A program made the translations under genes and the position numbers. A stretch of DNA of 64,000 bases from Armatimonadota bacterium (lineage in GTDB: Bacteria > Armatimonadota > Fimbriimonadia > Fimbriimonadales > Fimbriimonadaceae). The stretch lies in assembly GCA_029781035.1 (NCBI GenBank), contig JAKOXK010000022.1, positions 1 to 64,000 of the forward strand, in the 5' to 3' direction. Under the pieces are notes generated by a model that saw nothing but the letters and a program-made list of their open reading frames with translations, did not search any database and had not been told where the DNA came from. This document shows positions 8,529 through 55,859 of the stretch, in pieces (position 1 is the stretch's first letter; every line of letters begins with the position of its first letter).

Positions 8529-8816
8529 ATGGCGAGAAGTCTCAAAAAGGGTTACTTCATCGACGAGCACCTTGCAGAGAAGGTGCAGTCCATGAATGCG
8601 ACTGGCGAGAAGAAGCTGATCAAGACGTGGTCGAGGCGGTCGACCGTCACTCCCGACATGATCGGCCACACGATCGCGGTCCACGACGGACGCAAGCACA
8701 TCCCTGTCTTCGTGACCGAGAACATGATCGGCCACAAGCTCGGCGAATTTGCCCCGACACGGACATACAGGGGCCACGACGGATCGATCCCAGAGCGAGG
8801 GGTGCGGGTCAAGTAA
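8529..8816 (+). CDS. rpsS: 30S ribosomal protein S19
   Basis: 95-residue S19 of the small-subunit head. Clear family sequence: [18 protein letters not shown], the [20 protein letters not shown] core, and [16 protein letters not shown]. Normal length and no extensions. AAGGA precedes the ATG. A 137-nt gap follows before rplV, the largest gap inside this operon. Confidence 0.98.
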
Positions 8817-8953
8817 GTCCCGAAAATGGCTGCTTGGCATTCGGTACAATCCGATGCCTTGCAAGCTGACCAGCAAGGCGCCTTGAGTCGCGTCTGACGG
8901 TCGGTTCGGGCAAGATCCCCGCAGAGTTAGGAACAGTCTGAGTAAAGGACGAA

Positions 8954-9535
8954 ATGGAAGTACGAGCAGTCGCAAAGTATGTGAAGGTGCAACCGAGGAA
9001 GGTGCGCATCGTCGCCGACGAGGTCCGGGGTGTTCCGGCCCAAAAGGCGGCCGACGTCCTCCGGTTCCACTCTAGCAAGGGAGCGTTCCACCTGAGAAAG
9101 GTGATCGTGAGCGCGATCGCCAACGCCCAGGAAAACCATGGCGTTTCGCCTGAGAGCTTGAAGATCGCGACGGTCATGGTTGACGAAGGCCCGCGGATGA
9201 AGCGGATCACGGCCCGCTCGATGGGCCGAGCCAACCGGATCCTCAAGAAGACGAGCCACATCACGGTCGTCGTTGAGGAGTTCGAGCCGGCTGGTAGCGT
9301 GAAACCTCACGGTACTAAGCCCAAGGCAAGGCCGAAGTTCGAGGCGCCGAAACCGAAGAAGGCCAAGAAGGAAGCCAAGGTCGAAGAAGTTGTGACCGAA
9401 GAAATCGCGGCAGAGGAGACCCCGGTCGTGACCGCAGAGACGGTCGAACCCGCAGCAGCCGCACCTGAGACGGCGGATGAAGCCACTGCGGAAGCGCCAG
9501 CGGGCGAGGGCGCTGTCGAGGAGGAGTCGAACTAA
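8954..9535 (+). CDS. rplV: 50S ribosomal protein L22 with acidic C-terminal tail
   Basis: 193 residues against about 110 for typical L22. Residues 1-110 are canonical (EVRAVAKYVKVQPRKVRIVA, RMKRITARSMGRANRILKKT), including the hairpin that lines the exit tunnel. From about 111 a tail is added: first Lys/Pro-rich, then about 60 residues dominated by Glu, Ala, Val and Thr. The tail is strongly acidic, unusual for an RNA-binding ribosomal protein. The stop overlaps the rpsC start (TAATG). The 137 nt upstream contains an imperfect hairpin around TACAAT (8845-8850) but no convincing promoter. Confidence 0.96.
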   Translation: MEVRAVAKYVKVQPRKVRIVADEVRGVPAQKAADVLRFHSSKGAFHLRKVIVSAIANAQENHGVSPESLKIATVMVDEGPRMKRITARSMGRANRILKKTSHITVVVEEFEPAGSVKPHGTKPKARPKFEAPKPKKAKKEAKVEEVVTEEIAAEETPVVTAETVEPAAAAPETADEATAEAPAGEGAVEEESN

Positions 9536-19382: not shown

Positions 19383-19742
19383 GTGAAAAGACGCAGGAAG
19401 CGCGGTGGCTTCACCCTTGTCGAGATCATGATCGTCGTCCTGATCATCGGCATTCTGTTGACAATAGCCATTCCCAACTTCGTCTTTGCTCGCCAAGCGA
19501 GTCGGGCCGAAGCGATCATCGCAAGTCTCAAGAAGATCGATGCAGCCAAGGATCAGTGCGCCATGGATCGTGGCCTGGTTCCTGGAGACGATTGCGCGGA
19601 CACCGCGATGGCCACTTATCTCGAGTCGTATCCGCCCAAGTTCCCCGTGACCGGCTCCTTTGTGAAAGGCACGATTGGCGTTGAACCCACGTTCAACGGA
19701 CGAACGGCGGAAGGCTGGGAGAGCGACAAGTCGGGACTTTGA
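19383..19742 (+). CDS. Type IV pilin-like protein, copy 1
   Basis: 119-residue prepilin. Basic leader MKRRRKRGG, then the cleavage and N-methylation motif GFTLVEIMIVVLIIGILL with Glu at mature position 5. The short globular part holds two Cys (DQCAMD, DDCADT), likely a disulfide, and ends with FVKGTIGVEPTFNGRTAEG. The start is GTG 19383 with GGAG 10 nt upstream. It is closely similar to the gene at 19917, so this is a tandem duplication. It would be processed by a prepilin peptidase, not seen here, and assembled into a pilus or pseudopilus. Confidence 0.9.
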   Translation: MKRRRKRGGFTLVEIMIVVLIIGILLTIAIPNFVFARQASRAEAIIASLKKIDAAKDQCAMDRGLVPGDDCADTAMATYLESYPPKFPVTGSFVKGTIGVEPTFNGRTAEGWESDKSGL

Positions 19743-19819
19743 CCATGACTGACCACGGCACTTCCATGTTCTTCTACCGGTCTCCCGCCCAGCGTGAGAT
19801 CGGAAATCCAGCACTCGTA

Positions 19820-19837
19820 CTAGGCTGCACAGCCTAG
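19820..19837 (+). other. Hairpin between the two pilin genes
   Basis: Perfect 7-bp stem CTAGGCT/AGCCTAG with a GCAC loop, in the 174-nt spacer between pilin copies. No T-tract; it may stabilise or process the mRNA. Confidence 0.5.
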
Positions 19838-19916
19838 AGGAGATGGAACGAAGGATTCAGGAGGGCCGGGTGCCCAACCAAGAGAAAACCCTGTCTGTCC
19901 GGAGGATCGAACTCAA

Positions 19917-20282
19917 ATGAAGCGAATCAACAAGAAGCGCAAAGGCTTCACCCTGGTCGAAATCATGATCGTCGTGTTGATCATCGGCATCCTGCTCGCA
20001 ATCGCGGTGCCGAACTTCCTCACGGCGCGCCAGAACAGCCGTGCGCAAACGATTGTCGCCGACCTCAAGCAGGTCGAAGCCGCCAAGGACCAGTGTGCCA
20101 TGGACAAAGGCCTGACGACTGGCGACGATTGTACTGACACCGACATGGCCAACTACATGAAGGTCTATCCACCGAAGTGGCCTGTCGCCGGCGGCACCTT
20201 TGTCAAGGGCACCATCGGCACCGACCCCACGTTCAACGGCAAGACCGCCGATCAGTGGTCCGACGACCACTCTGGCCTCTAA
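19917..20282 (+). CDS. Type IV pilin-like protein, copy 2
   Basis: 121-residue prepilin paralog of the preceding gene. Leader MKRINKKRK, then GFTLVEIMIVVLIIGILLAI. The same two Cys positions (DQCAMD, DDCTDT) and the same C-terminal layout (FVKGTIGTDPTFNGKTADQW). The ATG is preceded by GGAGG and GGAGGATCG-type sequence. Two near-copies suggest a major and a minor subunit, or gene dosage for an abundant pilin. A hairpin follows at 20310. Confidence 0.92.
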   Translation: MKRINKKRKGFTLVEIMIVVLIIGILLAIAVPNFLTARQNSRAQTIVADLKQVEAAKDQCAMDKGLTTGDDCTDTDMANYMKVYPPKWPVAGGTFVKGTIGTDPTFNGKTADQWSDDHSGL

Positions 20283-20309
20283 GTCGCAACTCGCGACCGA
20301 CGTACTTTT

Positions 20310-20338
20310 GGGGTGGGGCGGCTCGACCGAACCACCCC
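20310..20338 (+). terminator. Hairpin after pilin copy 2 (possible attenuator)
   Basis: Perfect 7-bp stem GGGGTGG/CCACCCC with an inner CGG/CCG stem, followed by CCTTGATGTTT. No strong T-tract, so it may only partly stop transcription and keep pilin mRNA above that of the downstream minor-pilin genes (inference). Confidence 0.5.
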
Positions 20339-20377
20339 CTTGATGTTTCCGCCGATTGAGCGGCGACCCTATTCACC

Positions 20378-20842
20378 GTGAAACGCCACCACCGAGCCCG
20401 CAAGATTCGAGGCGCCATGTTGATCGAAGCGCTGTTCGCCCTTTTCGTGGCGGTGACATGCGCCCTTATCTACTCGGCCTCCGTCCCTGCAGCCAACAAC
20501 TGCCGAGCCAAGGCTGACTACTCCAACGTTGCTGTGGGACTTGCTCAGAAGGAGCTCGAGGCTCTCAAATCGGTCGATCCGAACCTGGATCCATCAATCC
20601 TGGCAAGCAAGGGGCTGATCGACAGCTCCACACCGATCGGCACGAACGAGTATTCCTTCACGAACTGCGACAGCGCCTATTCGGACAGTCCGGCCCGCGT
20701 CCTTCCAGACGGCCAAGGGGCCATTACTATCGAACTCATCGACCTCGAACTCCGAAGAGTGACCGTTGTGGTCACATGGACCGAGTTGGGTCGAGAGCGT
20801 TCGGTGACTGTCGGAACTTGGGTCGCCAAGCTGAACGGATGA
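20378..20842 (+). CDS. Prepilin-like protein (PilV/GspI-like)
   Basis: 154 residues. Basic leader MKRHHRARKIRG, then AMLIEALFALFVAVTCALI: a class III signal with Glu at mature position 5 but Ala-Met-Leu-Ile in place of Phe-Thr-Leu-Val. The rest is a small globular domain with two Cys (NNCRAK, TNCDSA) and ends VTVGTWVAKLNG. GTG start. Position and size suggest a minor pilin. It is followed 3 nt later by the next pseudopilin gene. Confidence 0.8.
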   Translation: MKRHHRARKIRGAMLIEALFALFVAVTCALIYSASVPAANNCRAKADYSNVAVGLAQKELEALKSVDPNLDPSILASKGLIDSSTPIGTNEYSFTNCDSAYSDSPARVLPDGQGAITIELIDLELRRVTVVVTWTELGRERSVTVGTWVAKLNG

Positions 20843-20845
20843 TCC

Positions 20846-21424
20846 ATGCGTAGAAGAAAGAACCAAGGCACGACACTCGTCGAGACTGTCGCCGCTGCCT
20901 TTGCCACGGTGCTGGCGGTCGGAGCAGCAGGCTCGATCTGGTTCTCCGGCGCGGCAACGTGGTACCGGGGAGCCGGGAAGATCGATGCAGAGACACAGAG
21001 CCGTAAGGCAGTGCGACTGATCTCCAACGAACTGGCCGAAGCCATGACCGTCACAATCGACGCCAACGGAATGGGGCTTTCCTTCCAGAGGCCGAAGAAG
21101 GACGCCAACGGCGACTACATGTCCGACGTTCAAGGACAACCCATGTCGGACGGTATTGTCCGTCGGATCTTCCTTACCGGCGGGCGGATCGTCTACACCG
21201 ACGGCGTCGGTTCGCGCACGCTCGGCCGGAGCATCATTTCGACTGACCCGTACAGCGGCGACGGACACACGCCCTACAAGATTTTCACCCCTGGCCAGGG
21301 AGCTATCGTGCGCCAGGTCACCGTCATGATCGTCTCGCAAACGACCGGCGCCAACAAAGAACTGGTCGTTGGCCGCAAGCGCGAGACCGTTTTCCTTCGC
21401 AACATCTACGACACCACTCGGTAA
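20846..21424 (+). CDS. Prepilin-like protein (PilW/GspJ-like)
   Basis: 192 residues with the prepilin motif QGTTLVETVAAAFATVLAV (Glu at mature position 5) after leader MRRRKN. A long N-terminal helix is followed by a beta-rich domain with TQSRKAVRLISNELAEAMTV, typical of GspJ/PilW minor pilins that form the tip complex. It sits between the GspI-like and PilX-like genes, matching the usual minor-pilin gene order. Confidence 0.8.
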   Translation: MRRRKNQGTTLVETVAAAFATVLAVGAAGSIWFSGAATWYRGAGKIDAETQSRKAVRLISNELAEAMTVTIDANGMGLSFQRPKKDANGDYMSDVQGQPMSDGIVRRIFLTGGRIVYTDGVGSRTLGRSIISTDPYSGDGHTPYKIFTPGQGAIVRQVTVMIVSQTTGANKELVVGRKRETVFLRNIYDTTR

Positions 21425-21436
21425 GGAGCCATTGCA

Positions 21437-23368
21437 TTGCCAACCCTTTCAATGAGAAGGTCACGAAAGCGCGGAGCGGCCCTGGTCCTGACGCTAGGAG
21501 TCATGACCCTTGTCGCCCTTGCAGCCGCGTCCTACCTCAGCATCGCGACCCAAACCATCCGGGACGCCGGACACAATCTGCGAGACATTCAGACCACGCA
21601 CTTGTGTGAAGCAGGTCTCCAGGCGGTTCAGAGGACACTTTGGAGGCCGTTCCGGCAGTCACAGAAGTTCACTGACATGGTCAATGCCTGTCAGGGTGCC
21701 GACGTCGGCAACGAGAAAGTGGTCACGACGGGCGAAGTGCCTGGCGTGGGCCGGTTTTCGGCTGCCGTGATCGGCTTCAGCCAGCCCAATACGTACCTGG
21801 CGGTGGTCAAGATCCGTTCGATCGGCTTCATTGACCGCAATAGCAACGGAGTCCTGGACAACGGCGAATCTTTCCGCCAAGTGGACACCGTGGCGCGGTT
21901 CGAGCTGTCACGGAGCCAAGTCTTCGACTACACGTACTTCATCAACAACTACGGGTGGTGGGACGGATTTGGCGCGAACGACGCCATCATCAACGGGGAC
22001 ATGCGGGCAAACGGGAACTTCGACTTCACGAACGGCTCGCCAACCGTCAACGGCACGGTGATCGCCTGCGCCAACGACAAACTCGACCCGAAAGTCAACG
22101 GCATCATCAACACGCCACCGGTCAAGTGGTCAGACTCGACTTACTCGTCAGCGTGGAACAACGTCAATACGTCGTCCCGCGAGCGCTGGCGACCGCCGTA
22201 TGACGCGTCCAAGTACGGGAACGTCGGCACTTCGACCTTCACGAACTGGCGAGACATGGTGTTCGAATCAAACGCTCAGTGGGTCAACGGATACACGAGC
22301 GGGAACACCTTCATTCCGCCGAGCTCGTTCGGCGCCGTCCAGGCTGACTCGCGCGGAATGAGTAGCTGGGACCGACAGTCCTCGAACGGAACTGTCACGA
22401 CGAACCTGCTTGACACGAAGCCGACGACCGAAGTGGTCATGCCGGACTTGAGCGACATCAGCCAGTACCAGCAGTTGAGCGCGAACTTCGGGGCCGATCC
22501 CGGCAACTATCAGAAGAAGTTCTACGCTGACGGAACGGCAAACCCGAACTACGGCTCACCTGCGTTCGTAGACGTCTGGAACACGGCGCAGAACAAGTAC
22601 GTCCGCCTCAGCGACTCTAGCGGCCAGATCAGCGGAAGTGCCGTTCTTGTCGGCACTTCGACCCACCCGATCAAGCTGTATGGGCCGGTGACGGTGAGTC
22701 AGGACGTCGTGATCAAGGGCTACGTCGCTGGTCAGGGCACGCTCTATGCCGGTCGCAACGTCCAGATCGTCGGTAGCGTGCGGTACTCCAGTCCACCGAG
22801 CTGGCTCGGTAGCGACCCGCAGGCGAACGACTACGCCAACGAAAAGAAGGACATGCTCGGACTCGCCGCCCGTGGTTCCGTCATTATGGGCGACCCGACG
22901 ACCTTCTCGTACCCGTACCCGCTCTACTACATGATGCCGCCCTTCACTCACGGTCGGTACGACGACAACGGGAACTACATTCCCGCGTTCGACGCCACGA
23001 AGACCGATTCGACGGGCCGGAAGCTGTATCAGAGCGTCGTGTCGGACACGATCATCCATGGAATGGCCGAAGGTGTCAACCAGATCGACGCCATCCTCTA
23101 CACGAACTTCGTTGGTGGTGGAAACGTCGGAACCGGCGGACAAGGCATCAACTTCAACGGGACGATCGTCAGCAAAGACGAGTCGATCGTCACCTGGAGC
23201 CTACCGATCCGGATGAACTACGATACGCGGATCCGCGAGCGCGGCCCTGACAACCCTCCGTTGATCGACCTACAGATGCCGCGACAGCCAACGCTCATGC
23301 GCAGCACGTGGCAAGACAAAGGGTTCTACGACTTCGGCAGTGGTCAGGGAACCGGAGGCCAGCAGTAA
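21437..23368 (+). CDS. Large PilX/GspK-like pilus-associated protein
   Basis: 643 residues. The N-terminus SRKRGAALVLTLGVMTLVAL is the basic-plus-hydrophobic segment of PilX N-terminal-domain proteins; Glu5 is absent, as in GspK. The rest is a large exported region rich in Asn, Gly, Ser, Thr and Tyr with long beta stretches. The TTG at 21437 is taken as start because AAGGAG lies 8 nt upstream; ATG 21452 is possible. The stop overlaps the next ATG (TAATG). It may be a tip or adhesin-type subunit of the pilus encoded here. Confidence 0.75.
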   Translation: MPTLSMRRSRKRGAALVLTLGVMTLVALAAASYLSIATQTIRDAGHNLRDIQTTHLCEAGLQAVQRTLWRPFRQSQKFTDMVNACQGADVGNEKVVTTGEVPGVGRFSAAVIGFSQPNTYLAVVKIRSIGFIDRNSNGVLDNGESFRQVDTVARFELSRSQVFDYTYFINNYGWWDGFGANDAIINGDMRANGNFDFTNGSPTVNGTVIACANDKLDPKVNGIINTPPVKWSDSTYSSAWNNVNTSSRERWRPPYDASKYGNVGTSTFTNWRDMVFESNAQWVNGYTSGNTFIPPSSFGAVQADSRGMSSWDRQSSNGTVTTNLLDTKPTTEVVMPDLSDISQYQQLSANFGADPGNYQKKFYADGTANPNYGSPAFVDVWNTAQNKYVRLSDSSGQISGSAVLVGTSTHPIKLYGPVTVSQDVVIKGYVAGQGTLYAGRNVQIVGSVRYSSPPSWLGSDPQANDYANEKKDMLGLAARGSVIMGDPTTFSYPYPLYYMMPPFTHGRYDDNGNYIPAFDATKTDSTGRKLYQSVVSDTIIHGMAEGVNQIDAILYTNFVGGGNVGTGGQGINFNGTIVSKDESIVTWSLPIRMNYDTRIRERGPDNPPLIDLQMPRQPTLMRSTWQDKGFYDFGSGQGTGGQQ

Positions 23369-32295: not shown

Positions 32296-33141
32296 CTAGA
32301 GCCGAATGCCGATCTTAGCGAGGAGGCCCTCAAGCTCGTCCTCGGAGTAGAAGTCGATGCTCAGACGCCCCCCAGACCCCTTCCTGGCCAAGTTCACTTT
32401 GGCACCAAAGTGCTCGGACAGACGGCGCTCGACGGCCATCCAGTCAGGGTCAGGTTCGGGATGAGGAGACTCTGGCTTGTGTCCAACGGGTGTCCTGGGT
32501 GCGCCCTTTGCCATCCGCTCCAGCTCACGCACCGACAGACCTTCGTCCACACACCGTTCGAACAGCTGCATCAAACGCCCTGGGCTATCGACCATCAAGA
32601 GCGCCCTTGCGTGACCCTCCGAGATCACTCCTTCAGAAATCGCCTCCTGAACCGCCTCCGGCAGCCTGAGGATCCTGAGCGAGTTCGCCACTGAGACGCG
32701 TGATTTGCCGACCCGAGCCGCAACCTGCTCCTGAGTGAGCCCGAACTCATCGGAAAGGCGTTTGTAGGCCCGGGCACAGTCAAGCGGGTTGATGTCTTCA
32801 CGCTGGACGTTTTCGATCAGGGCCATCTCAAGCGAGGACTGTGCACTTGCCGTCCGGACCAGAACAGGAACGACCTTGAGACCGATGGACTTGGCCGCCC
32901 TTAAGCGTCGCTCGCCTGCGATGAGTTCAAATCGCCCCCCAGCGAGAGCTCGGACGACCAGAGGCTGCAGGAGGCCGTGCTCCTTGATTGACGAGGCCAA
33001 CTCTTGAAGCGACTCGTCTTCGAACCGTTGCCGCGGCTGTCGAGGATTGGCGACAATGTCGGCGACCGACACTTCCGTCGGTGGAGTGTCGCTCGTCTCA
33101 CCCAGCATCTGGGTCAGGCCTTTACCTAGGGCACGGCGCAT
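32296..33141 (-). CDS. parB: ParB-family chromosome partitioning protein
   Basis: 281 residues. N-terminal nuclease/CTPase-like domain with IVANPRQPRQRFEDESLQEL, LIAGERRLRAAKSIGL (GERRxRA motif) and IENVQREDINPLDCARAYKR; then a helix-turn-helix GLTQEQVAARVGKSRVSVAN and a C-terminal dimerisation domain. ParB binds parS and spreads using CTP. No parA is adjacent on either side, unlike the usual parAB pair; a ParA/MinD relative at 54714 looks different. The ATG has GGAG 9 nt upstream and follows a long leader hairpin. Confidence 0.95.
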   Translation of the reverse strand: MRRALGKGLTQMLGETSDTPPTEVSVADIVANPRQPRQRFEDESLQELASSIKEHGLLQPLVVRALAGGRFELIAGERRLRAAKSIGLKVVPVLVRTASAQSSLEMALIENVQREDINPLDCARAYKRLSDEFGLTQEQVAARVGKSRVSVANSLRILRLPEAVQEAISEGVISEGHARALLMVDSPGRLMQLFERCVDEGLSVRELERMAKGAPRTPVGHKPESPHPEPDPDWMAVERRLSEHFGAKVNLARKGSGGRLSIDFYSEDELEGLLAKIGIRL

Positions 33142-33151
33142 CAGGGTTCTC

Positions 33152-33201
33152 CGTCTGATCGTTGGGCAGCCACCGGCCCGGGGCCGCGGCGCGATCAGAC
33201 G
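33152..33201 (-). promoter_or_regulatory. Long hairpin in the parB leader
   Basis: Perfect 10-bp inverted repeat CGTCTGATCG (33152-33161) and CGATCAGACG (33192-33201) enclosing 30 GC-rich nt. It ends just before the parB ribosome binding site. A TATCGT -10-like box (minus, 33199-33204) overlaps the distal arm. It could be an operator, an mRNA structure or a flagellin terminator. Confidence 0.5.
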
Positions 33202-33225
33202 ATACCCTGTCGGGCTAGGCTGACC

Positions 33226-34683
33226 CTAGCCTCCCTTGAGGAGCTGAAGGATCGACTGGGGCGCCTGGTTCGCCTGGGCGAGCACGGCGATTCCGCTCTG
33301 CTGGAGCACCTGCAGCTTTGTGTACTCCGACATCTCGTACGCCACGTCAGCGTCGCGGATCTGGCTCTCACTGGCGGTCAGGTTCTCTTGGGCCACAGAC
33401 AACGATCGCTGCGTCGACTGGAGGAAGTTGCTCTGGAACGATCCGATGTTGCCGCGTAGGGAAGCGACTTGCTGGACAGCGTCGTCGATGATCTTCATCG
33501 CGTTCGTGGCGCCCTGCTGGCTCGTGACGTCGATCGTGGAAAGGTTCTGTCCTGCGACAGCGTTTGTACCGAGGTCAGAGGCGAAGACGCTCGGGATCGA
33601 GAACAAGGTGGCTTGGTCCGGGTTGGCTCCTATCTGGAACCGCATCGAGCCGACCGTCAGTTGCCCGATCGTCTGCGCGCCGGCGGTCGCGTTGCCCGTA
33701 GGCGTGAGCACCATCCGGTTGCCGCTGGGTGACGTCAGGGTCAGGCCGTCGACTCCGGGGCCGATCCCGCCGGTGAACGTCTCGGTCTGGGCACCGTTGA
33801 CGGTCGGTGCCGTCACGGAGTAGACAGCGTCCGTACCGACAGCGGGCACCGCCCCGGCGCCGCCATTGAGAATGTTGGCGCCCTCAAGGTAGTTGATAGG
33901 GAACTGGGATCCGTATTTGGTTGACGTCAACTGGACAGCAACATTGCCACCGCTCGGCACGAGCGTGGCAGTCACACCTGTGTCACTGGACGACTGGTTG
34001 ATCATCTGAACCACGGAGTCGACGGTTGTTCCCGTGTCGACAGTGAAGGTGTGGCCGTTGATCGTGAAGGTACCTGGATTCACCGTGGCCGAACCGTTGG
34101 CGAAAGTTGTCGCGAGAGCTCCAGTCGTCGTCTGGGTCGCCTGAGTCGTCTGCGTGATGCTGACCGTGCCGGTCTGGACGGCATATCCGTTGAACTCGGG
34201 CCCGATGTAGAGGCTTGAGGCCAAGTCCGTTCTGGTGATGCTGGATTGGACACCCGCCGCTCCGTTCAGGAGCTTCTTGCTGCCCCATGACGTCTGCTGT
34301 GCAATCCGGTTGATGGAGTCGATGATGTTCCGGATCTGACCCTGGTTAGCTGCCAGTTGCGTGGCATCCACCGTTGCCGTGTTGCTCGAGTTGACGGCCA
34401 GAGCGCGCATGTCCAAGAGCAGTCCCGAGACCTCGTTCAACGACGATTCGGCGGTCTTCGTCATGTTGATCGCGTCCTGGACGTTACGACCGGCTTGATC
34501 GATGCCTTTGATCTGACTGCGAAGGCCCTCACTGATAATGAGTCCGGCGGGATCGTCAGCGGCGCTGTTGATCCGCAGTCCCGTACTGAGGCGAGACACG
34601 GAGCCTTCCAACATGCTCTGCGTGTCCTCTAAGTGTCGCATCGCCGTCAGGGCGGAGATGTTCGTGTTGATCCTCAGGCTCAA
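33226..34683 (-). CDS. Flagellin
   Basis: 485 residues, the filament subunit. The conserved N-terminal D0/D1 is SLRINTNISALTAMRHLE with LSTGLRINSAADDPAGLIIS; the C-terminal D1/D0 is DVAYEMSEYTKLQVLQQSG through ANQAPQSILQLL. The middle (about 150-370) is a Thr/Gly/Val/Ala-rich variable insert. The start codon is TTG 34683 with ACGGAG 8 nt upstream. No other flagellar gene is nearby, so this is an isolated flagellin locus. Confidence 0.96.
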   Translation of the reverse strand: MSLRINTNISALTAMRHLEDTQSMLEGSVSRLSTGLRINSAADDPAGLIISEGLRSQIKGIDQAGRNVQDAINMTKTAESSLNEVSGLLLDMRALAVNSSNTATVDATQLAANQGQIRNIIDSINRIAQQTSWGSKKLLNGAAGVQSSITRTDLASSLYIGPEFNGYAVQTGTVSITQTTQATQTTTGALATTFANGSATVNPGTFTINGHTFTVDTGTTVDSVVQMINQSSSDTGVTATLVPSGGNVAVQLTSTKYGSQFPINYLEGANILNGGAGAVPAVGTDAVYSVTAPTVNGAQTETFTGGIGPGVDGLTLTSPSGNRMVLTPTGNATAGAQTIGQLTVGSMRFQIGANPDQATLFSIPSVFASDLGTNAVAGQNLSTIDVTSQQGATNAMKIIDDAVQQVASLRGNIGSFQSNFLQSTQRSLSVAQENLTASESQIRDADVAYEMSEYTKLQVLQQSGIAVLAQANQAPQSILQLLKGG

Positions 34684-54713: not shown

Positions 54714-55859
54714 CTAAGCCGCGAACAACGAACGGAGGCGCTCGACGAGTCCGGGGCTCCGTTCCTGGTCGGCAGGCAGGCCCGCTATCTTCCGCGCCAG
54801 GTTTCTCACGTCTTGCGCCGAGTTCGATTTCGGATGGGCCAAGACGAATGGGACGCGCTCCCTGCTGGCCCCGGCTGCGACAGAATCGGACCTCACGTAG
54901 CCGGCAAACTGTGCCCTTGCGCCATTGTCCAATCCGAGGAAGGTGTTGAACTTGGCAAAGACGAGTTTGGCGTGCGTCGCGTCCGTAACTTCATTGACAA
55001 CGCACCTGAGGACAATGTCTTGGTTCAACTCCAACAGACTCGTCGCGACAACGTAAGCGTCCAGCACACTGGCCGGGTCGGGAGTCAGAACGAGCCAAGC
55101 CTCGTCGGCGGTCAGGGCTTGGTCTAGGGTCGCTTGGGAGGCGCCGGCCGCGGTGTCGATGAAGACATAGTCGAACCGTCCACGAAGGTCAAGTGCCTTT
55201 TCTACCGAACAGTTGGACTCGCTCGCCCCCGGCTTGCCAGCCAGTAGGCAGACACCGCTCGACGTGTTCTCCAGCGCTTCGTGCAGGCCACATTTGCCCA
55301 GGTTCACGTCTGCAAGGGTGTGTCGTGGTCGGCTGCCAAAGAGTACGTGGAGGTTCGCCAGAGTGTCACCATCGACGGCAGCAACCCGGAAACCCTGGCC
55401 CGCCAAGGCAGCGGCAAGGTTGGCGGTCAAGGTCGTCTTGCCGACTCCACCTTTGCCACCAGTGATGGCCAGGAACTTTGTGTTGCCTCCGTGGACAGGT
55501 GCGCTTGGAACGTCCAAACCAAAGGTCTTGCCTAGCCGAGGTGCCTGGCTGACAGCCTCGATGAGGTCGGAGTCCTGACCTTCGGGCTTGGAGCCATAGA
55601 CGGCGACGAACGCACTGTCCCAAGTCTCTTTGGCAACCAAGAGTGTCGACACGTCGTGCCCACACTCGTTCTTGAGCTGGTGCAAAGCCTCAGGCGACAT
55701 GTTCCAAGTGCAAAGGCAGCGCAGAACGCCATCTTCCATCTTGAATGGCACAACGCCGAACGCCTCGGCCGTACGCCGACTGAGCGCGGCGGCGTGTGAC
55801 CGCTGAGCGGATGTGGTGTTTCCCTCCATGACCTTGTTCCGGGAGTCGGATTCCACCAT
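54714..55859 (-). CDS. MinD/FlhG-type ATPase with MshEN-like N-terminal domain
   Basis: 381 residues from ATG 55859, or 371 from ATG 55829. Residues about 25-90 (SRRTAEAFGVVPFKMEDGVL, then RCLCTWNMSPEALHQLKNE) resemble the MshEN/T2SSE N-terminal module, which in other proteins binds c-di-GMP. A SIMIBI ATPase follows, with deviant Walker A GGKGGVGKTT at 135-143, VAAVDGDTLANLHVLFG and DYVFIDTAAGASQ. The last residues (GLVERLRSLFAA) look like a MinD-style amphipathic membrane helix. It may position flagella or pili (inference). It ends convergent to the E2 gene. Confidence 0.8.
   Translation of the reverse strand: MVESDSRNKVMEGNTTSAQRSHAAALSRRTAEAFGVVPFKMEDGVLRCLCTWNMSPEALHQLKNECGHDVSTLLVAKETWDSAFVAVYGSKPEGQDSDLIEAVSQAPRLGKTFGLDVPSAPVHGGNTKFLAITGGKGGVGKTTLTANLAAALAGQGFRVAAVDGDTLANLHVLFGSRPRHTLADVNLGKCGLHEALENTSSGVCLLAGKPGASESNCSVEKALDLRGRFDYVFIDTAAGASQATLDQALTADEAWLVLTPDPASVLDAYVVATSLLELNQDIVLRCVVNEVTDATHAKLVFAKFNTFLGLDNGARAQFAGYVRSDSVAAGASRERVPFVLAHPKSNSAQDVRNLARKIAGLPADQERSPGLVERLRSLFAA

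Follow-up and report, generated by a model that had tools for sequence, protein, structure and literature searches.

The feature under study is a minus-strand gene in the window, by which is meant the whole 64,000-nucleotide stretch of DNA that was analysed. The gene is real and is correctly read as encoding a protein of two domains. The features are as follows:

54714..55859, minus strand: fusion gene, 381 aa, MshEN_C-MinD (ORF 55859..54714, Pfam, structure model)
55803..55859, minus strand: residues 1-19, disordered tail (pLDDT < 50 over residues 1-16)
55587..55802, minus strand: residues 20-91, GSPII second subdomain, MshEN_C / ND1 (Pfam, profile, structural alignment)
55488..55586, minus strand: residues 92-124, low-confidence linker (pLDDT < 50 for residues 92-104 and 106-124)
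54774..55487, minus strand: residues 125-362, MinD/FleN-type SIMIBI ATPase domain (phmmer, structural alignment to FleN)
55431..55457, minus strand: deviant Walker A GKGGVGKTT, with signature Lys136 and P-loop Lys141 (sequence, alignment)
55353..55373, minus strand: switch I DGDTLAN (alignment)
54717..54749, minus strand: residues 371-381, putative membrane-targeting helix LVERLRSLFAA (model, family pattern)

Ahead of the ATG the frame stays open for only about 7 more codons (388 versus 381 aa), and Met11 is a possible alternative start, with AAGG lying just 5' of this second ATG. The neighbouring genes, as read from their translations, encode a dihydrolipoamide-acyltransferase-like protein, a secreted protein and a dnaE-like protein. 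Elsewhere in the window, a pilin/pseudopilin-like gene cluster occupies positions 19383-23368, and a flagellin gene then a ParB-like gene are found at 32296-34683, in the same order as beside the fused gene of a related genome (G060, L056 5252-9433). The architecture of MshEN_C plus a MinD-type ATPase in one protein is regarded as practically certain. The first-pass annotation had read the gene as an MshEN-like domain joined to a MinD-type ATPase, and this was borne out by the agreement of Pfam, profile and structure comparisons; both domain folds are established at the level of prediction and profile.

The Pfam MshEN model (PF05157) matched residues 17-91 at 23.3 bits, with a cut-off of 23.1. 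Since this score was marginal, the N-domain was tested in three further ways. A profile built from 12 fused homologues, using their N-terminal parts, matched type IV pilus motors in the PDB, namely PilF (3e-13), PilB (8e-11) and MshE (0.04). The family profile was required for this, as phmmer with the N-domain sequence of the window protein alone as query gave no matches. The fold search with the full-length model was dominated by the ATPase domain and gives no test of the N-domain, which was therefore modelled and searched separately. The AlphaFold model of the isolated domain had a pLDDT of about 84-90 across residues 31-90, and the top 23 ranks of the Foldseek search were all N-domains of pilus/secretion ATPases (E 1e-4, probability 1.00). 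In VIA-align the best unrelated fold reached a Z of 4.9, compared to 9.2 for MshE (5htl, residues 71-145), 9.3 for PilF GSPII-B, 7.6 for EpsE ND1 (14-81) and 7.8 for GspE (12-78). A structural match to MshEN, which had been set as a test of the annotation, was thus found. The proposal that the first ~90 residues resemble MshEN holds for the second subdomain, corresponding to MshE residues 71-145, while the complete module is absent.

The missing subdomain is the one that binds the messenger. The c-di-GMP site is MshEN_N, residues 9-61 of VcMshE, in which two 24-residue motifs start at residues 9 and 38, and the isolated residues 1-62 bind c-di-GMP slightly better than the whole module (PMC5013675). 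MshEN_C supplies one dispensable contact, D108 (PMC5013675, PMC12002112). The Pfam MshEN model itself covers the second subdomain and begins at residue 60-69 in the complete sister proteins, after the motifs. MshEN_N with its two RLGxx..G..L...L..Q motifs (start spacing 29) is absent from the fusion protein and occurs complete, with the double motif, in paired sister genes. The double-motif score over the window ORFs had a maximum of 13/22, which is background, compared to 18-22 for intact proteins, and the fused homologues also scored at background level. The supply of MshEN_N from a longer start or an upstream ORF was considered and rejected, as the open frame holds only 388 codons and the window is without a double motif. 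With MshEN_N absent, the tail disordered, the frame short and the window motif-free, direct sensing is unlikely, and from the sequence it is deduced that the fusion very probably does not bind c-di-GMP directly. The second-messenger sensing that had been ascribed to the N-domain was accordingly given up, and the tie of the fusion to c-di-GMP survives only in trans, via paralogous two-gene pairs.

The remainder of the protein was matched by the Pfam MinD/ParA families from residue 128 and by phmmer to FleN (E 3e-26). The ATPase domain superimposed on FleN 5j1j with a Z of 32.5 and an rmsd of 1.9 over 238 residues, and on FlhG with a Z of 31.4; scores for MinD were about 30 (range for MinD and FleN, 28-32). 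The assignment to the SIMIBI positioning-type ATPases is well supported by the match to FleN. A deviant Walker A (KGGxGKT/S) with the signature lysine and a MinD fold are both present, and the alignment showed an intact Walker A together with D163, D165 and D235. The cut-offs of the NCBIfam septum-site MinD models were not reached (99.5 versus 201.75 bits and 91 versus 212.9 bits). The switch I, DGDTLAN, is one residue shorter than the DCDFGLSN of the other fused members, the window protein has an 8-residue deletion after residue 215 relative to homologues, and it lies on a long branch (1.36-1.4). The shortened switch I and the long branch suggest that its ATPase may be weak.

The C-terminal amphipathic helix of the first-pass annotation was retained in part. 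A helix is predicted at residues 371-380 with modest confidence (pLDDT about 62-66), but in a shuffle test its amphipathicity was no better than that of shuffled sequences (p 0.57). Most members with an intact Walker A have a C-terminal phi-phi-x-R-phi pattern (two hydrophobics, x, R, hydrophobic), and it is from this family-wide pattern, rather than from the significance test on a single sequence, that membrane targeting by the C terminus is suggested.

Six MshEN domains in the window genome scored above the Pfam cut-off, and three of these are linked to a MinD/ParA-type ATPase: the fusion and two gene pairs, on contigs C7 and C76. In the C7 pair (G000:C7) a 208-residue MshEN gene (L044 7955-8581) overlaps a 252-residue MinD gene (8578-9336). 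Motif I of this MshEN has H in place of R and K in place of Q, for which reason its affinity for c-di-GMP may be reduced. In the C76 pair (G000:C76) a gene for an acidic protein of 407 residues with MshEN_C at its end (L045 9913-8690) overlaps a 226-residue ParA-like gene (L045 8693-8013). This third architecture, a long acidic protein ending in MshEN_C with an overlapping or adjacent ParA/MinD gene, was also observed at L055:6929-9310 (G050:C7). Among the unfused same-order loci (drawn from L002 and L015-L036 plus the genome's own C7), a complete MshEN gene lies directly upstream of the MinD gene in 18 of 21, and in those 18 the MshEN carries a near-consensus double c-di-GMP motif with the canonical spacing of 29. 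The aligned profile of the paired MshEN proteins covers MshE residues 8-145 at 3.5e-28. MshEN and MinD proteins are thus partnered throughout the bacterial order of the window genome. At named MinD/FlhG loci from elsewhere the MshEN neighbour was missing in 79 of 80, the sole exception being L100 (JADZEW010000035.1, labelled Methanoregulaceae archaeon), whose pair is nearly identical to that of relative G041; this contig was probably mis-binned into an archaeal MAG. No description of an MshEN-MinD fusion or pair was found in the part of the published literature that was covered, and the conserved two-gene operon is probably of more interest than the fusion itself.

Across the phylum, the search of 291 genomes returned 17 fused genes; these belong to 16 genomes, each from the same family as the window genome. 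Among the matches listed for 395 genomes of another phylum, none was N-terminally extended, and the full-alignment contig scan gave no fused homologue at the 80 named loci because its search patterns lay in the P-loop. Fused ATPase domains whose motifs are intact group in a single clade (support 100/100), and the branch joining fused and paired MinD domains had support of 44/89. In a profile comparison the fused N-domain matched the paired MshEN with 98.4% probability, aligned only behind the motif region. Between the fused orthologues of two related genomes, dN/dS was 0.09 for ND1, 0.14 for MinD, 0.22 for the linker and 0.35 for the tail, making ND1 the most constrained segment, though the values are rough as dS was near saturation (1.5-2.2). 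Some fused members have kept the N-domain with the ATPase motifs gone. Seven members of one genus (L054, L056, L077, L079-L082) have lost both the lysine of Walker A and the C-terminal helix and are apparent pseudo-ATPases; the joint loss was probably one event, and another member of that genus (G032) retains both. A gene with a cyclic-nucleotide-binding domain was seen near the fused gene at L050:9257-9703, L053:7286-7738, L054:8972-9580 and L079-L082, and not in the window.

A function for the retained half is suggested by secretion and pilus motors. The second subdomain of MshEN equals ND1 of PilB. EpsL/GspL are reported to bind EpsE/GspE at ND1, and the same surface has been proposed for PilM on PilB (PMC8389850). 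Since the c-di-GMP half is absent and ND1 is the partner-binding part of GspE/EpsE, a docking role is more likely than one in sensing the messenger. Besides a PilM homologue, three other motor-type ATPases with an MshEN domain are encoded in the window genome. We hypothesized that the fusion is a membrane ATPase of the MinD kind whose N-domain is a docking domain of the pilus-motor type, and that it is related to a system of c-di-GMP receptor plus MinD; we assign this reading a rough probability of 0.5. ATP-bound dimers would sit on the inner membrane via the C-terminal helix and would be released upon ATP hydrolysis, as in the MinD cycle. ND1, on its flexible linker, would dock the ATPase onto an envelope machine, for which the type IV pilus with its PilM ring is, by analogy with EpsE/GspE, the most plausible candidate; where that machine works, or whether it works at all, would depend on this docking. 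The MshEN partners still carry c-di-GMP motifs, so any messenger input would be expected to arrive through them and not through the fusion. We infer the ATPase activity, the membrane cycling, the PilM partner and the positioning role from these comparisons. The docking to a pilus-type machine in particular is put at somewhat below an even chance. No pilus gene lies beside the fusion in the window, nor consistently at the other fused loci, and in G050 and G060 (L054, L056) the immediate neighbour of the fused gene is flagellin and not a pilus gene, which was counted against pilus docking. The seven members without the Walker A lysine and helix further indicate that a membrane cycle is not essential everywhere. 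A broader and distinctly tentative proposal is that these proteins form a lineage of positioning systems of the MinD type that serves type IV pili or a related envelope machine. In most of its members a separate MshEN would read c-di-GMP and control MinD, and a single family would have joined the docking half of MshEN directly to the ATPase, giving a version independent of the messenger.

Those flagellin neighbours bear on the reading of the fusion as the FlhG of this genome, which would have an unusual N terminus and would govern the number or placement of flagella. Of the solved structures, FleN and FlhG come closest, and the window genome has FliG and four flagellins, one of them in the window (33226-34683). 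FlhA, present in 82 of 101 genomes of the same set, was not detected in it, which may reflect an assembly gap or a reduced flagellum. In a third genome, G182, flagellin lies inside the 4 kb locus of the fused gene. However, the fused copies of G050, G060 and G182 all have a degenerate Walker A, so that the flagellin-adjacent copies of G050 and G060 are without a working one. The FlhG motif DQAxxLR was found at 5/5 FlhG loci of the phylum and 7/12 named loci, but at 0/8 fused and 0/13 paired loci, and it is absent from the window protein. No flhF, flhA or fliA neighbour was found at the locus, and the fused genes form their own clade. A pair or fusion was present in 36 of 52 FlhA-positive and 5 of 9 FlhA-negative family genomes (Fisher p 0.46, from a small sample with incomplete genomes among the FlhA-negative ones), leaving 16 FlhA-positive genomes with neither. 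A specifically flagellar role thus found no support. With DQAxxLR and a flagellar gene context both absent, FlhG identity was rejected, and with no DQAxxLR and no FlhA association the fusion was not filed as FlhG; this reading is considered unlikely.

An equally unlikely reading is that of a signalling adaptor acting off the membrane, in which the nucleotide state of the ATPase would decide whether a partner is held, on the model of FleN and FleQ. FleN was the best structural match, the MinD-like FleQ-FleN system is known to be linked to c-di-GMP (PMC10723142), the C-terminal helix is weak in the window sequence, and certain fused members retained the N-domain after losing their ATPase motifs. 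The MinD-like phi-phi-x-R-phi end kept in most intact members argues against such an adaptor, and no transcription-factor partner is nearby. Decay of the paralogue to no important role in the window organism is more improbable still. It would account for the long branch, the shortened switch I and the 8-residue deletion, and the active site was clearly lost in one genus; against this, the frame and Walker A are intact, both domains model well, and the orthologues are under purifying selection. The least probable reading has the N-domain itself as the c-di-GMP receptor, linking the messenger directly to positioning at the membrane, as the Pfam label, the 9 GGDEF domains of the genome (by which c-di-GMP is probably made) and the coupling of MinD to complete MshEN in sister genes would favour, and it was dismissed because MshEN_N is missing, the structural match starts only at MshE residue 71, the motif scores are background in the fusion and its homologues, and MshEN_C would add a single dispensable contact.

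MinD-like ATPases position many structures in bacteria, but little is understood of how they identify the machines of type IV pili or of how c-di-GMP might steer this. The recurrent pairing, together with a fusion that keeps only the docking half, points to a PilM-like partner, and the fusion and the pairs would offer matched messenger-blind and messenger-responsive versions for comparison.

Among known systems, the CpaE/TadZ pilus-placing ATPases, some of which are inactive as ATPases, have a small receiver-like N-domain followed by a MinD-like domain. The fusion likewise has a small N-domain ahead of a MinD-like domain, but no receiver-like domain of that type was seen in it, its N-domain instead matching GSPII domains (ND1), and it scored 24.5 against a cut-off of 154.45 with the CpaE/TadZ model TIGR03815. 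MshE, PilF and PilB share the fold of their second subdomain with the fusion N-domain; the fusion is without their first, c-di-GMP-binding subdomain and without their motor ATPase, having a MinD-type ATPase instead. EpsE and GspE (2bh1, 4pht) have, like the fusion, an ND1-only N-domain of about 70 residues, but there ND1 serves a hexameric secretion motor and binds EpsL/GspL. FleN and FlhG are the best structural matches of the ATPase domain, and the fusion differs from them in its extra N-domain, its separate clade, and its lack of DQAxxLR and of a flagellar operon. Lastly, FleQ-FleN, in which a c-di-GMP receptor is partnered with a MinD-like ATPase, follows a logic comparable to that of the MshEN/MinD pairs, with the difference that FleQ, unlike MshEN, is a transcription factor and has another c-di-GMP site (PMC10723142).
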